This document shows, piece by piece, positions 11,231 through 61,488 of a stretch of 64,000 nt of DNA. The notes beneath the pieces were generated by a model. The model saw only the letters and a list, made by a program, of their open reading frames with translations. It did no database searches and had not been told where the DNA came from. The stretch lies in the NCBI GenBank assembly GCA_016180645.1, contig JACPAV010000012.1:1-64000 (forward strand). The letters run 5' to 3'. Both the position numbers and the translations under genes were made by a program. The stretch comes from Nitrospirota bacterium (GTDB lineage Bacteria > JACPQY01). Position 1 is the stretch's first letter. Every line of letters begins with the position of its first letter.

Positions 11231-11300
11231 CGCAGGCATGAAGCCTGCGCCTACCCGGAAATGCACTCACGGTAACCGCGGGCTTCAGCCCGCGTCATCA
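11231..11300 (+). repeat. intergenic double-hairpin repeat (CGCAGGC/CGCGGGC type)
   Basis: Two short hairpins, CGCAGGCATGAAGCCTGCG and CGCGGGCTTCAGCCCGCG, are joined by a linker containing CCTACCC. A copy about 85% identical over ~65 bp (by eye) lies at 32136-32200, and related modules lie at 30998-31065 and 60314-60373. It separates the decarboxylase-like gene from the dehydrogenase within one operon. Confidence 0.7.
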
Positions 11301-30933: not shown

Positions 30934-30997
30934 ACGGACTGAGCCGCAGCGGTATGCTCGGCGCGGGCACGATTTGAGTTTCCCCCAACGTCCAAGG

Positions 30998-31065
30998 ACG
31001 CACCCATAAAGGGTGCGGCTACCAAGACCGACCGCGTAGGCGCAGGTTTTGTGCCTGCGTCTTCG
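30998..31065 (+). repeat. intergenic double-hairpin repeat (module order A-B)
   Basis: It contains GCACCCATAAAGGGTGC followed by GGCTACC, then GCGTAGG and CGCAGGTTTTGTGCCTGCG. The same two hairpins occur in reverse order at 60314-60373. The rest of the 155-bp gap between glutaredoxin and esterase holds nothing else recognised. Confidence 0.65.
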
Positions 31066-32135: not shown

Positions 32136-32200
32136 CGCAGGCGTAAAGCCTGCGCCTACCCTGAATGCACATTCTCGGTAGCCGCGGGCTTTAGCCCGCG
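32136..32200 (+). repeat. intergenic double-hairpin repeat, second copy
   Basis: CGCAGGCGTAAAGCCTGCG and CGCGGGCTTTAGCCCGCG match 11231-11300 over ~65 bp with about 85% identity by eye. It lies between the GH31 and esterase genes. Confidence 0.7.
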
Positions 32201-32253
32201 TGATTGCGCGAGAGGGTCTAGCGACGCTGTCCCGCAGGAAATGGCGGAAGAGG

Positions 32254-34781: not shown

Positions 34782-35381
34782 TCAAGTGGGGATGGATGCC
34801 ATGGGTTGCGGTGGCCGCTCCGGGCTCGTGCCCTCTCCGCCTGAGGCGGACACTTCCCCCATCCTGGAGGTCGGCACCACGTACGGCTTGCGCGTACCGC
34901 GATGACGAAGCGGTTGCTCTTCACGAATGAGCTTTTGGAGATACATCAGGCCGTCGGCCAGTGCTTCGGGTCGGGGAGGGCATCCGGGGACGTACACGTC
35001 AACCGGAATGACTTTGTCCACGCCGCGGAGGACGGAATAGCCGAGGTCGAAGAGCCCGCCGCAGTTGGAGCAGCTTCCCATCGAGAGGACCCACTTGGGC
35101 TCGGTCATCTGTTCCCAAAGAAGGCGGACGCGTGTCGCCATTTTGTACGTGATCGTTCCGGCGATGATCATCACATCGGACTGCCGCGGCGTGGCGCGGA
35201 AGATCATACCGAAGCGATCGAGGTCCAATCGCGGCCCGCCGGACTGCATCAGCTCGATTCCGCAGCACGCGGTGGCAAACAGCATGTACCAGAGCGAATT
35301 GCTCCGGCTCCAGTTGATGAGATCTTCGAGCTTGGCCACCACCACGGTGCCCGCTTCACTGACCGAATCGCGAATGCCCAT
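34782..35381 (-). CDS. nuoB: NADH-quinone oxidoreductase subunit B (orphan)
   Basis: The 199-residue protein has NuoB/PSST signatures for cluster N2: [11 protein letters not shown] with the tandem Cys, [10 protein letters not shown], and [11 protein letters not shown]. In complex I this subunit hands electrons to quinone at the membrane interface. No other nuo gene is nearby; it sits between fabF and a HesB gene. The C-terminal ~35 residues (after [10 protein letters not shown]) are atypical. Their codons contain a diverged copy of the in-frame repeat also found in murD and the ftsZ leader (34813-34866). Confidence 0.9.
34813..34866 (-). repeat. in-frame coding repeat, NuoB copy
   Basis: On the minus strand it runs CCAGGATGGGGGAAGTGTCC (first 20 bases) and ends GAGCCCGGAGCGGCC. 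Both ends match the copies at 50223 and 58402; the middle holds an extra palindrome TCCGCCTCAGGCGGA. It is read in the same phase, giving [15 protein letters not shown] compared with GEMPREGRSPER. Confidence 0.6.
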
Positions 35382-49180: not shown

Positions 49181-50695
49181 TTGAAATCTCAAATCTCAAA
49201 TCTCAAATCGGCCCGCGTGGCCGTTCTGGGCCTGGCCTCCACCGGGCGAGCGGTGTGCAGGTTCCTCCTAAGAGAGGGCGCCACGGTATTGGGACTGGAC
49301 CAGAAGGATACCCTTCTCATGCAGGAAATCGTGAAACCCCTGGTGGAAGCGGGCGTGACCGTCCGTCTCGGTCCGCATCGCAGCGAGGATTTTCGGGGAG
49401 TGGATGTGCTGGTCCTGAGTCCCGGCGTGTCGATTTCTCATCCCACGATCAAGGAGGTTTCGAACCGGATCCCCGTCTGGAGCGAGATCGAACTGGCGTA
49501 TCGCCATCTGAAGGCTCCGATCATCGGCGTGACAGGGACCAACGGCAAGAGCACGACCACGGTGCTCATCGGCAAGATCTTGGAAGCGGCGGGAAAGCGG
49601 GTCTTCACGGGCGGCAACCTCGGAACGCCCCTCATCGAAGCGGTCGGTGGCTCCTGGGATTGGATCGTCTGCGAAATCAGCAGTTTCCAGCTTGAGGCGA
49701 TTCGGGAGTTCAGGCCGAAAATCGGCGTCTTTTTGAACATCACGGACGACCATCTGGACCGGCACAAGGATTTCAACGAGTATTTCGACGCCAAGAAACG
49801 ATTGTTCGAACACCAACGAAGCGAGGATTTCGCCGTCATCAATCTGGATGATCCGCTGTTGGCGGATTGGGCCCGCGCATTGTCCGCCTCGCTCATCGGT
49901 ACGAGCCGGCTTCGATCGACCTCGCCGGGCGCCTTCCTCCGGGGGGACGAGTTGGTGTACGGCGATACCCGTGTCGAGGAGAGCTATCCGCTGGCGGAAG
50001 CCAACCTCAAGGGCGTGCACAACATTGAGAACATGCTGGCTTCGATTGCGGCGGCCCGCCTCGCCTTCTGTCCGCCGGATGCGATCCGCTCCGTCCTGAA
50101 AACATTCCAGCCCCTTCCGCACCGGATGGAATGGGTGGGAGCGGTGAAGGGCGTCGACTTCTACGACGATTCCAAGGCCACCAACGTTGGCGCGGTGATT
50201 CGCGCCATCGAATCGATGACCCCCACGACGGGGGAAATGCCGCGGGAGGGCAGGAGCCCGGAGCGGCTGACCCGCAAAACGGTCTTGATCCTCGGCGGCC
50301 TCGACAAAGGTGGGGATTTCGGCCTGATCGCGAGTCAGTCCGATCGAATCCGCCATGCGGTCTTGATCGGCCAGGCCAGGCAGCGATTGGAAGAAGCATT
50401 GCGGGGCAGGGTGGAGACCTCCCCCGCCGGATCGATGGGTGAAGCGGTGCGGTCGGCGTGGAAATCCGCGGAAGAGGGAGATGCGGTGCTGCTTTCACCG
50501 GCGTGCGCGAGCTTCGACATGTTCAAAAGCTACAAGGATCGAGGTGAACAATTTTGTGAGGCCGTCAGGAAACTGGCGGCCGAAGTGTCCGCTTCAGGGC
50601 GGGAGGGGTCCCAGGCCCGGAAGACAGGCAGCAAGCCGAGCGATGGAGGGACGGCGAAGTCGCCAAAAGGGGTTTATGAAGCGCGCATGCATTGA
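49181..50695 (+). CDS. murD: UDP-MurNAc-L-alanine:D-glutamate ligase MurD (with inserts)
   Basis: The 504-residue Mur ligase adds D-Glu to UDP-MurNAc-Ala. It has VAVLGLASTGRAVCRFL at the N-terminus, the P-loop GVTGTNGKSTTTVL (~117) and a central domain with NITDDHLDRH. DDSKATNVGAVIRAIES and LILGGLDKGGDFG lie in the C-domain. About 20 residues (~347-366) between those two segments are encoded by the in-frame repeat 50223-50270, and the tail beyond ~467 by a diverged copy. Both are absent from typical MurD. The first ~11 residues (from TTG 49181) come from a tandem AAATCTC repeat, so a GTG at ~49217 may be the true start. Confidence 0.93.
   Translation: MKSQISNLKSARVAVLGLASTGRAVCRFLLREGATVLGLDQKDTLLMQEIVKPLVEAGVTVRLGPHRSEDFRGVDVLVLSPGVSISHPTIKEVSNRIPVWSEIELAYRHLKAPIIGVTGTNGKSTTTVLIGKILEAAGKRVFTGGNLGTPLIEAVGGSWDWIVCEISSFQLEAIREFRPKIGVFLNITDDHLDRHKDFNEYFDAKKRLFEHQRSEDFAVINLDDPLLADWARALSASLIGTSRLRSTSPGAFLRGDELVYGDTRVEESYPLAEANLKGVHNIENMLASIAAARLAFCPPDAIRSVLKTFQPLPHRMEWVGAVKGVDFYDDSKATNVGAVIRAIESMTPTTGEMPREGRSPERLTRKTVLILGGLDKGGDFGLIASQSDRIRHAVLIGQARQRLEEALRGRVETSPAGSMGEAVRSAWKSAEEGDAVLLSPACASFDMFKSYKDRGEQFCEAVRKLAAEVSASGREGSQARKTGSKPSDGGTAKSPKGVYEARMH
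49184..49210 (+). repeat. tandem AAATCTC repeat at the murD start
   Basis: AAATCTC occurs in three tandem 7-bp units followed by AAATC at the very 5' end of the murD frame, encoding KSQISNLKS. A related block, with an added palindrome, lies at the 5' end of ftsW. Confidence 0.55.
50223..50270 (+). repeat. in-frame coding repeat, murD internal copy
   Basis: This 48-bp element starts CCACGACGGGGGAAATGCCG and ends GAGCCCGGAGCGGCTGA. It is identical to 58402-58449 at 46 of 48 positions. It is translated as TTGEMPREGRSPERLT. It contains the small palindrome GGGCAGGAGCCC (one mismatch pair). Confidence 0.85.
50582..50622 (+). repeat. in-frame coding repeat, murD C-terminal diverged copy
   Basis: GAAGTGTCCGCTTCAGGGCG plus GGAGGGGTCC resembles the middle of the NuoB copy (GAAGTGTCCGCCTCAGGCGG plus AGAGGGCACG). 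It is translated in the same phase as AEVSASGREGSQAR. The match to the shorter copies is weak. Confidence 0.4.
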
Positions 50696-56341: not shown

Positions 56342-57163
56342 ATGAAGATCAACAAGCGGCTTCGCAGCGGTGGATCCCGAATCCGCGGATTCTCCAGGGC
56401 CGTGACCGGATTCTTCGCCCGGGTGGCGGAAATCCCCCACGTGGGATCCATCCTGCTGGGCGCCTTCGTCGCGGGGATTCTGACGGCTCTCGCGGGCCAG
56501 GTCTTCGTCCTGAAGCGGGTGGTCGTGGAGGACACCGGGGGGTTCGAATCCAACCAGGTCGTGGGCTGGGCCGGACTCCACGGCGGAGAGAATTTGCTTT
56601 TCCTTGACCTACAAGATGTGGTAAAAAGGCTGGAAGCACAGCGATGGATCGCGGACGTGCGCATATGGAAAGTGTGGCCTCATACCCTCCGGGTTCGCCT
56701 CAATCGGAGAACCCCGTTCGCTCTCCTTTCCACATCTCAAGGCCTGGTGGCCGTTGATTCGGAAGGAAAACGTCTCGGAGGGGTGGAGGAAAACTCTCCT
56801 GGATTTCGCCTCCAAGGATTGGCCCTTCCGGAGTCCGGAACATTCGACGATCCGCGCTGGAAGGAAATTGTGATGCTTGCGACCCGAATTTCGAGCGCCC
56901 CGGATCTCGCGGGAGATCGTGTCGATACGGTGGCCGTGACTCCCGGTCGACTGGAATTCCAGACGTCCCGGTTTCGGATGGTATTTGCCGCGGGCCGCGC
57001 GGATGAGGGCTGGAAGACGTTTGAGAAATTCAGAACGGCGTACGGCTCGGAACGGCTGGATGAATTCCAGGTGTTTGATTTGACGATTGCGGATCGCGTG
57101 ATTACGCGTCCAACACCCATTAAGCAAGGCTCCCCCGGGCCTCTCACTTCCACCCAAGGCTGA
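56342..57163 (+). CDS. ftsQ: cell division protein FtsQ-like (POTRA)
   Basis: The 273-residue bitopic protein has a basic cytoplasmic start, one membrane helix (GSILLGAFVAGILTALAGQV) and a POTRA domain (LKRVVVEDTGGFESNQVVGW, followed by RWIADVRIWKVWPHTLRVRL). The latter is the conserved FtsQ element. Position before ftsA supports the call. The C-terminal ~100 residues are diverged. ATG 56342 overlaps the end of the C/G-rich repeat region. Confidence 0.85.
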   Translation: MKINKRLRSGGSRIRGFSRAVTGFFARVAEIPHVGSILLGAFVAGILTALAGQVFVLKRVVVEDTGGFESNQVVGWAGLHGGENLLFLDLQDVVKRLEAQRWIADVRIWKVWPHTLRVRLNRRTPFALLSTSQGLVAVDSEGKRLGGVEENSPGFRLQGLALPESGTFDDPRWKEIVMLATRISSAPDLAGDRVDTVAVTPGRLEFQTSRFRMVFAAGRADEGWKTFEKFRTAYGSERLDEFQVFDLTIADRVITRPTPIKQGSPGPLTSTQG

Positions 57164-57165
57164 CG

Positions 57166-58398
57166 ATGGCGCGCGGAGATATTGTCGTCGGACTCGATAT
57201 CGGTACCACGAAGATTTGCGTGGTGGTGGGCGAGGCGACGGAGTCGGGTACGGATATCATCGGCGTGGGCGACCACCCCTCCCGGGGCCTCCGCAAGGGC
57301 GTGGTGGTGAACATCGACAACACCGTCGAATCCATCAAGAAGGCGGTGGCCGAGGCCGAGTTCATGGCCGGGTGCGAAATCAACACCGTCTTTGCGGGCA
57401 TCGCCGGCGGGCACGTCAAGAGCTTCAACAGCACGGGCGTGATCGCCATCAAGGACCGTGAGGTCAAAACAGTGGACATCGACCGGGTCGTGGAAGCGGC
57501 CAAGGCGGTGGCCATTCCCATGGACCGTGAAGTCATCCACATTCTCCCGCAGGAGTTCATCCTCGACGGACAGGCCGGGTTGAAGGATCCGGTCGGCATG
57601 TCGGGTGTACGCCTGGAGTCGAAGGTCCATATCATCACGGCGGCCGTGACCTCGGCCCAGAACATCATCAAGTGCGCGAACAAGGCGGGGCTGGACGTGA
57701 GCGACATCATCCTTCAGCAGCTCGCAAGTTCCGAGGCCATCCTTACGCAGGATGAGAAAGACATGGGTGTGGCGATCCTGGATATCGGGGGGGGGACGAC
57801 CGATATCGCCGTTTTTGCGGACGGCTCGCTCAAATACACGTCGGTGCTCAATCTCGGCGGCGACCACGTCACGAACGACATCGTGGTCGGGCTGCGCACG
57901 CCGGCCCACGAGGCGGAAAAGATCAAGGAAAAGTACGGGTGCGCGCTGTCGAGCCTCATCACGAAGGACGAGAACATCGAGGTTCCCGGCGTGGGCGGGC
58001 GCAAGTCACGGCAGGAGAGCCGGAAGTTTCTGACGGAAATCATCGAGCTGCGAATGGAAGAGGTGCTCGAACTGGCGTTTCGGGACCTCGAGAAAGCCGG
58101 ATTCGGGGAGACCTTGACGGCCGGGGTGGTGATCACCGGCGGCGGTTCCATGCTGGAGGGATGCGTGGAGCTGGCGGAGAAGGCGTTCAACATGCCGGCT
58201 CGCAGGGGAATTCCTGAGAAAGTCGGCGGACTCTCGGATGCCGTGAAACATCCGAAGTACGCCACGGGCGTCGGCCTGGTGCAACTGGGAGGCGGATCGA
58301 GCAAGCGCAATCAGTTCCGCATCAGGGATGAGGAGATCTTCGACAAGGTCAAAGCAAGGATGCGAGAATGGTTCAAGGGGATAAAAGACTACTTTTGA
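57166..58398 (+). CDS. ftsA: cell division protein FtsA
   Basis: The 410-residue actin-fold ATPase tethers FtsZ to the membrane. It has VVGLDIGTTKICVVVGE at the N-terminus, the SHS2 subdomain (~85-160), ILDIGGGTTDIAVF, VITGGGSMLEGCVELAE and a C-terminal amphipathic helix VKARMREWFKGIKDYF as membrane-targeting sequence. It starts 2 nt after ftsQ and overlaps the open ftsZ leader frame by 31 nt. Confidence 0.96.
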   Translation: MARGDIVVGLDIGTTKICVVVGEATESGTDIIGVGDHPSRGLRKGVVVNIDNTVESIKKAVAEAEFMAGCEINTVFAGIAGGHVKSFNSTGVIAIKDREVKTVDIDRVVEAAKAVAIPMDREVIHILPQEFILDGQAGLKDPVGMSGVRLESKVHIITAAVTSAQNIIKCANKAGLDVSDIILQQLASSEAILTQDEKDMGVAILDIGGGTTDIAVFADGSLKYTSVLNLGGDHVTNDIVVGLRTPAHEAEKIKEKYGCALSSLITKDENIEVPGVGGRKSRQESRKFLTEIIELRMEEVLELAFRDLEKAGFGETLTAGVVITGGGSMLEGCVELAEKAFNMPARRGIPEKVGGLSDAVKHPKYATGVGLVQLGGGSSKRNQFRIRDEEIFDKVKARMREWFKGIKDYF

Positions 58399-58925
58399 CC
58401 CCCAGGACGGGGGAAATGCCGCGAGAGGGCAGGAGCCCGGAGCGGCTGAGCGAGAAGCAGGCGGAACTTTTCCAAGAGGGGTCAAGTTCCGGTTCGACGG
58501 AGGCGGCTGGTCCCACCGGATCTGCCGTGGCCATTGCGTCAGAGCCGTCGAATTCCGATACGCAGATAGGAGGGCCAAATTCCCTGAGCGCGGCGGAGGA
58601 ACCCGCCGGTGCATCGGGGCCAGTACGGTCCGGTACTTGCCAAGAAGAGCCGCTCCAGAGTGGGCGGCTAGAGGAGGAAAGTGCAGGGCCAATTGAGGAA
58701 ACCGTAGCGGCAGAGCCGGGAGATTCGGCGACGACCCACACGCCAGAGATGGCCGCCGAGGGTCAGTCGCCGGAAGCTCCGGCCTCCGACGGATCCTCCG
58801 AATCCACCTCCACGCTGGGGGAAACGTTTCTTCTCCAATCCTTGGAGCAGGAGTCGAATCCCTCCACACCGGAGGAAGCGCTCCTTGCCGAAGAGGGCGA
58901 GGAAGCATTGCAAAGGAGGCCTTCT
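58399..58925 (+). other. open frame between ftsA and the ftsZ core: possible FtsZ leader
   Basis: The ftsZ reading frame stays open for 186 codons upstream of its likely start (from ATG 58368). Translation would give an acidic, Ser/Pro/Glu-rich low-complexity sequence (EEPAGASGPVRSGTCQEEPL and similar) with no fold recognised. The first ~16 codons after ftsA are the 58402-58449 repeat (GEMPREGRSPERLS). It may be a genuine disordered FtsZ extension, a separate small protein, or non-coding insertion. The absence of stops over ~560 nt is notable. Confidence 0.5.
58402..58449 (+). repeat. in-frame coding repeat, ftsZ-leader copy
   Basis: This 48-bp element (CCAGGACGGGGGAAATGCCG at its head) differs from the murD copy at two positions. 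It begins 4 nt after the ftsA stop. It is read in the same phase as in murD. Confidence 0.85.
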
Positions 58926-60257
58926 ATGGAAGAGCAAAAAGGGACAACGGAGAAAGCGGCCGCCGCCGAATCGGCTCCCTCGACTGAAACCCCGGAGACG
59001 AGCATGTTCAAACTGGCGGAAGAGGAACCCACGTTCGGCGCGAAGATCAAAGTCTTTGGCGTCGGCGGGTGCGGCTGCAACGCCATCAAGAACATGTTCC
59101 AGTCCCATGTCCGTGGAGTGGAACTGATCGCGGCCAATACGGACGCGCAGCATCTTGAGAAACGGGCGAAAGCGGACAAGAAAATCCAGCTTGGTCCGGG
59201 ATCCACGCGTGGACTCGGCGCGGGCGGCGATCCCGAGCGGGGAAAGACGGCCGCGCAGGAAAGCCGCGAAGAGATCCGGAAGGTGCTCGAAGGCGCGGAC
59301 ATGGCTTTCATTACGGCCGGCATGGGCGGCGGCACCGGCACCGGCGCAGCGCCCGTGGTCGCCCAGATCGCCAAAGAAATGGGAATCCTGACCGTAGGCG
59401 TGGTGACCCGCCCCTTGGCCGATGAGGGCCCGCGGCGCCAGAAGCACGCCGAAGAAGGCCTCCGCGAGATGCGGAACTACACCGACACCATCATCGTCAT
59501 CCCGAACCAACGGCTTCTCGCCGTGGCGGGAGACCGGGATCTGCGCGAAGCGTTTAAGAAGGCGGACGACGTCCTGATCAACGCCGTGCGCGGGATCTCG
59601 GACATCATCACCGTACCGGGACTGGTGAACCGGGATTTCGCGGACATCAAGAGCGTGATGCAGGAAATGGGTCTGGCCATGATGGGCATCGGACTTGCGC
59701 AGGGCGAGAATCGCGCGAAGGAAGCGGCGGAATTCGCCATCTCCAGCCCGCTGCTTGAAGACGTGTCCATCCAGGGCGCGAAGGCCATCTTGGTGAACTT
59801 CACGGGCTACTCGATGACGCTCAACGAGGTGCATCAGGCCATTGATTACATCCGCCAGCAGGCCGGCGATCAGGCCCACCTGCTGTGGGGTGCCGTCTAC
59901 AACAAGAACAAGAAGTTCAAGGACACCCTGCGCGTGACGGTGATCGCCACGGGCTTCGGCACCACGAAGCGCGAGGAAACAACCGCTCGAACGGGGAACG
60001 TGCGCGAGCTGAGCGACTACGACAGCCCGACGTGGCTCCGGCGGAAACGCCAGGAGAAACCCGAGACAGCGGAGAAGGAGGTCGAACCCCTACCGCCCGC
60101 ACCGCAGCAGGCGGCCAGTGTGAATGCGAGCGCAAAAGCGGCGGCGGCGAAAACCGCGGCGGGCTACGGCGGCGTGACCATCCACGAGCGGTCGCGCGTG
60201 GAGACCACGGACGAGGACTACGACATCCCGACCTTTCTGAGACGCCGCCCGGACTGA
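58926..60257 (+). CDS. ftsZ: cell division GTPase FtsZ
   Basis: The 443-residue tubulin homologue forms the Z-ring. KIKVFGVGGCGCNAIKNM, NTDAQHL, the GTP signature GMGGGTGTGAAPVVAQIAKE, DEGPRRQKHAEEGL and the T7 region (NRDFADIKSVM) are intact. The variable linker (~350-425) leads to the conserved C-terminal peptide DYDIPTFLRRRP that binds FtsA. ATG 58926 has an ideal AAGGAGG 6 nt upstream and was preferred. Translation from 58368 would add 186 residues. The first ~40 residues before the core are low complexity. Confidence 0.95.
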   Translation: MEEQKGTTEKAAAAESAPSTETPETSMFKLAEEEPTFGAKIKVFGVGGCGCNAIKNMFQSHVRGVELIAANTDAQHLEKRAKADKKIQLGPGSTRGLGAGGDPERGKTAAQESREEIRKVLEGADMAFITAGMGGGTGTGAAPVVAQIAKEMGILTVGVVTRPLADEGPRRQKHAEEGLREMRNYTDTIIVIPNQRLLAVAGDRDLREAFKKADDVLINAVRGISDIITVPGLVNRDFADIKSVMQEMGLAMMGIGLAQGENRAKEAAEFAISSPLLEDVSIQGAKAILVNFTGYSMTLNEVHQAIDYIRQQAGDQAHLLWGAVYNKNKKFKDTLRVTVIATGFGTTKREETTARTGNVRELSDYDSPTWLRRKRQEKPETAEKEVEPLPPAPQQAASVNASAKAAAAKTAAGYGGVTIHERSRVETTDEDYDIPTFLRRRPD

Positions 60258-60282
60258 ACCGCGACCGGTTTTCGGATTTGTA

Positions 60283-60413
60283 CTGGGCTCTGTTTGATAA
60301 CGTGTTGGACCGGTAGGCGCAGGCTTCAGCCTGCGTCCGAAGACGCACCCGTAAAGGGTGCGGCTACCAAGAGAGGCGCCCCGGCAATGATGGGGTTTTC
60401 AAACAGAGCCTAG
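60283..60413. mobile_element. MITE-like element with 19-bp terminal inverted repeats
   Basis: The ends CTGGGCTCTGTTTGATAAC and (inverted) CTAGGCTCTGTTTGAAAAC match at 17 of 19 positions. The 131-bp interior has no gene and carries the CGCAGGCTTCAGCCTGCG and GACGCACCC/GGGTGC hairpins. A target-site duplication was not identified. It lies just after ftsZ. Confidence 0.55.
60314..60373 (+). repeat. intergenic double-hairpin repeat (module order B-A)
   Basis: GTAGG, CGCAGGCTTCAGCCTGCG, then GACGCACCCGTAAAGGGTGC and GGCTACC. It holds the same modules as 30998-31065 in the opposite order, nested in the inverted repeats at 60283-60413. Confidence 0.65.
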
Positions 60414-61362: not shown

Positions 61363-61488
61363 CAGAATGCGTAGGGGAGGGTCTTCAGACCTTCCCGACA
61401 AGAGGGAGCAAGCAAGTAGGGGAGGGTCTTCAGACCCTCCCGACAAGAGGGAGCATCTGAAGATGCTCCCCTACGAATCGGCATTCTG
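61363..61488. repeat. composite palindromic element with tandem 40-bp units
   Basis: Two 40-bp units starting GTAGGGGAGGGTCTTCAGAC (61371-61410 and 61416-61455) differ at one position. An inverted half unit (TCTGAAGATGCTCCCCTAC) follows. The block is framed by CAGAATGC (61363-61370) and GCATTCTG (61481-61488). It fills the gap between the amidase and rhodanese genes. Confidence 0.65.

Follow-up and report, generated by a model that had tools for sequence, protein, structure and literature searches.

FtsZ of this Nitrospirota bacterium is probably translated from the ATG at 58926, as a 443-aa protein with a short clade-specific N-terminal tail, behind a long untranslated spacer that carries an inserted repeat (Table 1). 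The repeat family, and not an ordinary leader, is the part of this locus worth pursuing. The locus lies in a 64,000-nt stretch of DNA, hereafter the window, for which a first-pass annotation had proposed a low-complexity leader of 186 residues fused to FtsZ.

Table 1. Positions of the ftsA-ftsZ features and of the repeat copies in the window.
Feature	Position	Strand	Remarks
ftsA	57166..58398	+	ends TTT-TGA; TIGR01174, 474.8 bits; final 31 nt shared, in another frame, with the reported leader
ftsA-ftsZ spacer	58399..58925	+	ftsZ frame open throughout; most likely untranslated (no peptide conservation, noncoding-like codons); 419-nt spacer in the relative
51-nt two-hairpin repeat copy	58396..58446	+	begins with the ftsA stop TGA; TGA again at 58447-58449; genome BLAST, covariance model, covariation
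Shine-Dalgarno sequence AAAGGAGG of ftsZ	58912..58919	+	-11.6 kcal/mol with the anti-SD; conserved in the relative
ftsZ CDS	58926..60257	+	most likely start ATG 58926, 443 aa; TIGR00065, 419.3 bits; SD and start conserved
Second Met	59004..59006	+	start of MFKLAEEEPTFGAKIKV; weaker SD, -6.6 kcal/mol; ATG in the relative too
Repeat copy in murD	50217..50267	+	in frame, +17 residues; gap against the relative's MurD; Mur_ligase_C spans the copy
Third, diverged repeat copy	34814..34873	-	48.1 bits

The ftsZ frame and its start site

The ftsZ frame runs without a stop from the ATG at 58368 to 60257 on the forward strand (629 aa, stop codon 60255-60257), and residues 219-541 of this open frame match the TIGR00065/FtsZ profile well above its curated cut-off (419.3 against 295.2 bits), which makes the product a member of that family. 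Evaluating the in-frame starts revealed that 58926 has a full Shine-Dalgarno sequence, AAAGGAGG, 6 nt upstream of the ATG, with a predicted anti-SD pairing of -11.6 kcal/mol versus -3.3 to -7.6 kcal/mol at all other in-frame starts, 59004 included. The ribosome-binding site that the first-pass annotation had placed here is thus genuine and by far the strongest in the frame.

The comparison with other genomes rests on a single relative (G001, locus L036 on JACPQY010000071.1, labelled as a Nitrospirae MAG), the sole genome to emerge from searches at the levels of family, order, class and phylum, beyond which further loci in the contig search reached only ~54% identity or less. The two species share 84.8% identity in FtsA and 76.9% in FtsZ, and the block around the ribosome-binding site and start, AAAGGAGGCCTTC(T/A)ATGGA(A/C)GAGCAA, is identical at 24 of 26 positions, a further point in favour of translation starting at 58926. 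At the FtsZ start the similarity between the two species breaks off abruptly.

The FtsZ that begins at 58926 carries an N-terminal tail of 26 aa that is partly conserved in the relative. Both this tail and the C-terminal linker look disordered, and both align between the species (0 of 2000 shuffles scored as high in either case). The segment from 59004, MFKLAEEEPTFGAKIKV, presumably resembles the usual FtsZ N-termini. As side observations, the 26 residues encoded by 58926-59003 precede the usual-looking N-terminus MFKLAEEEPTFG, and the relative has a similar, shorter tail; the CCTTC between the Shine-Dalgarno sequence and the ATG (58912-58926) is likewise conserved, AAGG and CCTT could pair across the Shine-Dalgarno sequence in that interval, and AAAGGAGGCCTT occurs once in the 464 kb examined.

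The spacer between ftsA and ftsZ

The first-pass annotation had set the leader at 558 nt in front of ftsZ, and the frame is open over this length as described; its first 31 nt (58368-58398), however, still belong to ftsA, whose 3' end is read there in a different frame, leaving a true intergenic length of 527 nt. The composition was also as described, the translation being acidic and rich in Ser, Pro, Glu and Ala with 13% hydrophobic residues, and a Pfam search with leader residues 1-186 gave no match. With its first stop at 60255-60257, the frame allows a leader that is fused to FtsZ or one that is untranslated, and the separate product that had been suggested is ruled out for ordinary termination.

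We propose that a T-poor and G+C-rich composition (64% GC, only 14% T) accounts for the open ftsZ frame of the spacer. Markov simulation gave a chance of 0.04-0.13 for an open frame at the leader's length and composition, and among intergenic stretches from 400 kb of the same genome together with the window, the frame of the downstream gene was open in 1 of 30 cases at a length of 525 nt and in 2 of 35 at 420 nt. An open frame here is therefore uncommon without being remarkable at 64% GC and 14% T, in a case that was selected for being open. For FtsZ this carries a caution: an upstream open frame in a GC-rich genome is weak evidence of a protein, and automated gene calls here could give FtsZ a false extension.

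Stops or frameshifts in relatives had been named beforehand as what would speak against the leader; this did not hold for the one relative, whose 419-nt spacer is likewise open in the ftsZ frame (chance 0.16-0.37 by simulation, ~0.06 empirically), so a long form is possible, and we judge this shared openness to be the best evidence for a putative coding leader. Such a long FtsZ, in which a fast-evolving, acidic and disordered leader of ~170-186 residues would be made alongside the short form from 58926, is nevertheless improbable in our estimation. Its candidate starts are ATG 58368, TTG 58395 (a TTGA overlap with the ftsA stop) and ATG 58416 inside the repeat, and both species have the TTGA overlap as well as an AAGGA-type Shine-Dalgarno sequence 7 nt before the ATG at 58368 (-5.2 kcal/mol); the conserved ATG and TTGA are, however, dictated by FtsA's own sequence, and the strong conserved Shine-Dalgarno sequence at 58912-58919 would have to lie within coding sequence. 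That other proteins of the same genome tolerate the same repeat in frame also counts in favour of the long form. Against it, the leader peptides of the two species (159 and 139 residues) did not align, 1175 of 2000 shuffles scoring as high, whereas the disordered segments that are truly part of FtsZ keep their similarity; the clade-level protein conservation expected of a translated extension was thus absent from the leader peptides in the one relative compared. The DNA of the two spacers likewise gave no alignment beyond the Shine-Dalgarno block.

Separately, synonymous-site conservation at the ftsA 3' end was considered as a sign of an overlapping start and set aside, since 13 of 18 sites against a gene mean of 0.59 is not striking. 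A different dispersed repeat, GTAGGGACGCATTCTCATGCGTCC (L036 2696-2719), sits in the spacer of the relative, which also speaks for an untranslated spacer; this repeat has the appearance of a GTAG-REP and occurs at many places in that genome.

Codon usage, which the first-pass annotation had put forward as a check, gave a noncoding-like outcome. GC at the three codon positions is 0.67/0.60/0.65 in the leader, where ftsA has 0.61/0.39/0.82 and the ftsZ core 0.64/0.43/0.82, and the synonymous codon score of the leader is -0.074 bits/codon (coding expectation 0.142±0.043, unbiased choice -0.179±0.06), with the ftsZ frame scoring no better than the leader's two other forward frames. Calibrated on low-hydrophobicity windows of the same genome, the leader scores -0.065, at the noncoding mean (-0.06±0.13; coding 0.086±0.097), and the relative's leader scores 0.014, between the two means. 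A fourth-order periodic model gave the leader -9.8 nats in total in the ftsZ frame against +104 for the ftsZ core. Split by part, the first half of the leader scores as noncoding (-13.4 nats at 58449-58688), which tells against a long FtsZ, and the second half holds a weak coding signal (+4.4 nats at 58689-58925), which speaks for one. The two other forward frames lie much lower, at -37 and -42 nats, and this lead of the ftsZ frame is a reason for some doubt about the noncoding reading. Codon tests have little power on disordered sequence, and even the true FtsZ N-tail of 26 aa scores low; we estimate that the coding statistics favour a noncoding leader only few-fold. The leader as a protein is thus disfavoured on three counts: it shows none of the amino-acid conservation that the disordered segments of FtsZ keep, its codons are noncoding-like, and its long form has no comparable Shine-Dalgarno sequence.

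Even less probable than a long form as such is a dual-isoform FtsZ in which ribosomes starting at the ftsA end or on the repeat, where an AGGA in a hairpin loop stands 8 nt upstream of an ATG, would make a ~66 kDa protein beside the short form. Were it true, an essential division gene would owe part of its coding sequence, and perhaps a start site, to a mobile repeat. The open frame and slight coding character of the second half could also be those of a decayed gene, or of an earlier and longer FtsZ, a reading that we hold to be very improbable in view of the missing domain match, the missing similarity to the relative's spacer, and the unique part of the spacer, which had no other significant match in the genome by BLAST.

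We infer that the spacer is untranslated, and its length may reflect control of FtsZ, a reading compatible with the untranslated spacer. The gap between ftsA and ftsZ is mostly below 100 nt in 80 other loci, with about a dozen of 141-545 nt; since the spacer exceeds 400 nt in both clade members, unlike most loci, it may have a control function, by analogy with E. coli, where the ftsA-ftsZ region gives rise to the antisense RNA StfZ (PMC9628754). A leader RNA, an ftsZ promoter region or an antisense RNA locus that sets the FtsZ level is possible on these grounds, if on balance unlikely, as a Rfam 15 search of 57000-60400 gave no match up to E 5, the promoter and terminator scan found a single weak promoter-like site that lies inside ftsA and by eye is not kept in the relative, and the two spacers lack DNA alignment beyond the Shine-Dalgarno block.

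The two-hairpin repeat

The repeat that the first-pass annotation had seen at the start of the leader is indeed there, and is one of ~32 copies that a covariance model finds in the 4.7-Mb genome. The same model finds one strong copy in the relative's genome and none in 96 other genomes (two of 98 in all), and the viral contigs searched held none. The unit is 51 nt, tandem copies having a period of 51, and a second form measures 90 nt, both multiples of three. In a 16-copy alignment it folds into two adjacent hairpins, the second interrupted, with pairing in 98.2% of cells, and five pairs show changes on both sides (0 of 500 shuffles); read directly, the majority consensus is free of stops in all six frames. 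Copies inside genes would therefore add 17 or 30 residues. AGGA or ACGA loops occur in both hairpins. The 90-nt form (L023, L141, L142, L143) has a different, longer apical part, CCCTGAAGGAATCGATGGAATC..., and lies in frame in the SucD-like gene and the alpha/beta hydrolase gene.

At ftsA the pattern TTT-[TGA]-48 nt-[TGA]-GCGAG suggests a 51-nt insertion at the stop codon that would leave FtsA unchanged. In the sequence of events we propose, the hairpin repeat entered at the ftsA stop codon and is now bordered by TGA at either end, which would preserve the normal end of FtsA, and a spacer of ~476 nt was lengthened by 51 nt; this order of events, like the mobility of the repeat, we infer from the present arrangement. 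Unlike the nine copies described next, the one upstream of ftsZ is not flanked on either side by coding signal of a shared open frame.

Nine copies of the genome have coding signal in a single open frame on both sides. The MurD of this genome has a 17-residue insertion relative to the relative's MurD exactly at the murD copy, and further in-frame copies lie in a SucD-like CoA ligase (CoA_binding domain), a DUF1329 protein and an alpha/beta hydrolase (Abhydrolase domain). Core genes such as murD and the sucD-like gene thus hold a 51- or 90-nt structured repeat with their frame unbroken, and the nearly empty sister genome allows filled and empty repeat sites to be compared directly. The single strong copy there (C40:2913-2963, locus L117) interrupts a GTAG-type palindrome with a net insertion of 51 nt, and an uninterrupted palindrome follows within a few dozen bases, so that a filled site and an empty one are neighbours. 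That every copy has a target duplication of exactly 3 bp was considered and not adopted as a rule, as this fits several copies (ftsZ, murD, DUF1329 and G001) and fails for some.

Other repeats were also seen in these genomes. The GTAG-type palindrome is separately present in both. A C25-peptidase gene (L017, C33:4878-7925) has further short repeat-like stretches in its translation, HPEPVEGW and PFDKLRVSGE, which suggests that more than one small repeat family lies inside genes of this genome. Within the window, a 40-nt segment at 61371-61455 is directly duplicated between genes with 97.5% identity, and short dispersed pairs that are 87% and 92% identical occur at 11231-11295 with 32136-32201 and at 30989-31027 with 60334-60372.

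Comparison with known systems

Among systems with comparable FtsZ starts, heterocyst-forming cyanobacteria have an FtsZ N-terminal peptide of ~51 aa that is highly conserved in the clade (PMC6175996). Their extension, like the one here, is treated inconsistently by gene callers (PMC6175996), whereas the leader described here is without conservation and only the 26-aa tail from 58926 is partly conserved. With the E. coli ftsA-ftsZ region and its StfZ RNA, the locus shares noncoding sequence between both genes and, by analogy, a possible control role.

As for the repeat, GTAG- and CGTC-tagged REP elements are short palindromes, some of which lie inside ORFs or give stop codons to flanking ORFs (PMC3733652); the present repeat differs from them in having no terminal GTAG or CGTC tag in the 16-copy alignment and in having two hairpins. 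The closest likeness is to Rickettsia palindromic elements (RPE), which are small dispersed stem-loop repeats found between genes and in frame inside conserved protein genes, 105-146 bp long, with terminal inverted repeats and a single long stem (reviewed in PMC2229807, citing Ogata et al. 2000). Like these, the present repeat is dispersed with stem-loops (~32 copies; five covarying pairs, 0 of 500 shuffles) and lies in frame in conserved genes (those for MurD and the CoA_binding, DUF1329 and Abhydrolase proteins). Its 51 or 90 nt and its two hairpins in a row, in contrast, do not match the RPE size and terminal inverted repeats, so that length and architecture set it apart; among the 98 genomes searched it is confined to two, of one lineage that has no relation to Rickettsia. 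Our best reading is of a protein-compatible dispersed family seen only in this two-genome lineage, which works like a Rickettsia palindromic element but is not one, and which would add another independent example to a phenomenon best known from Rickettsia, that of dispersed repeats compatible with protein.
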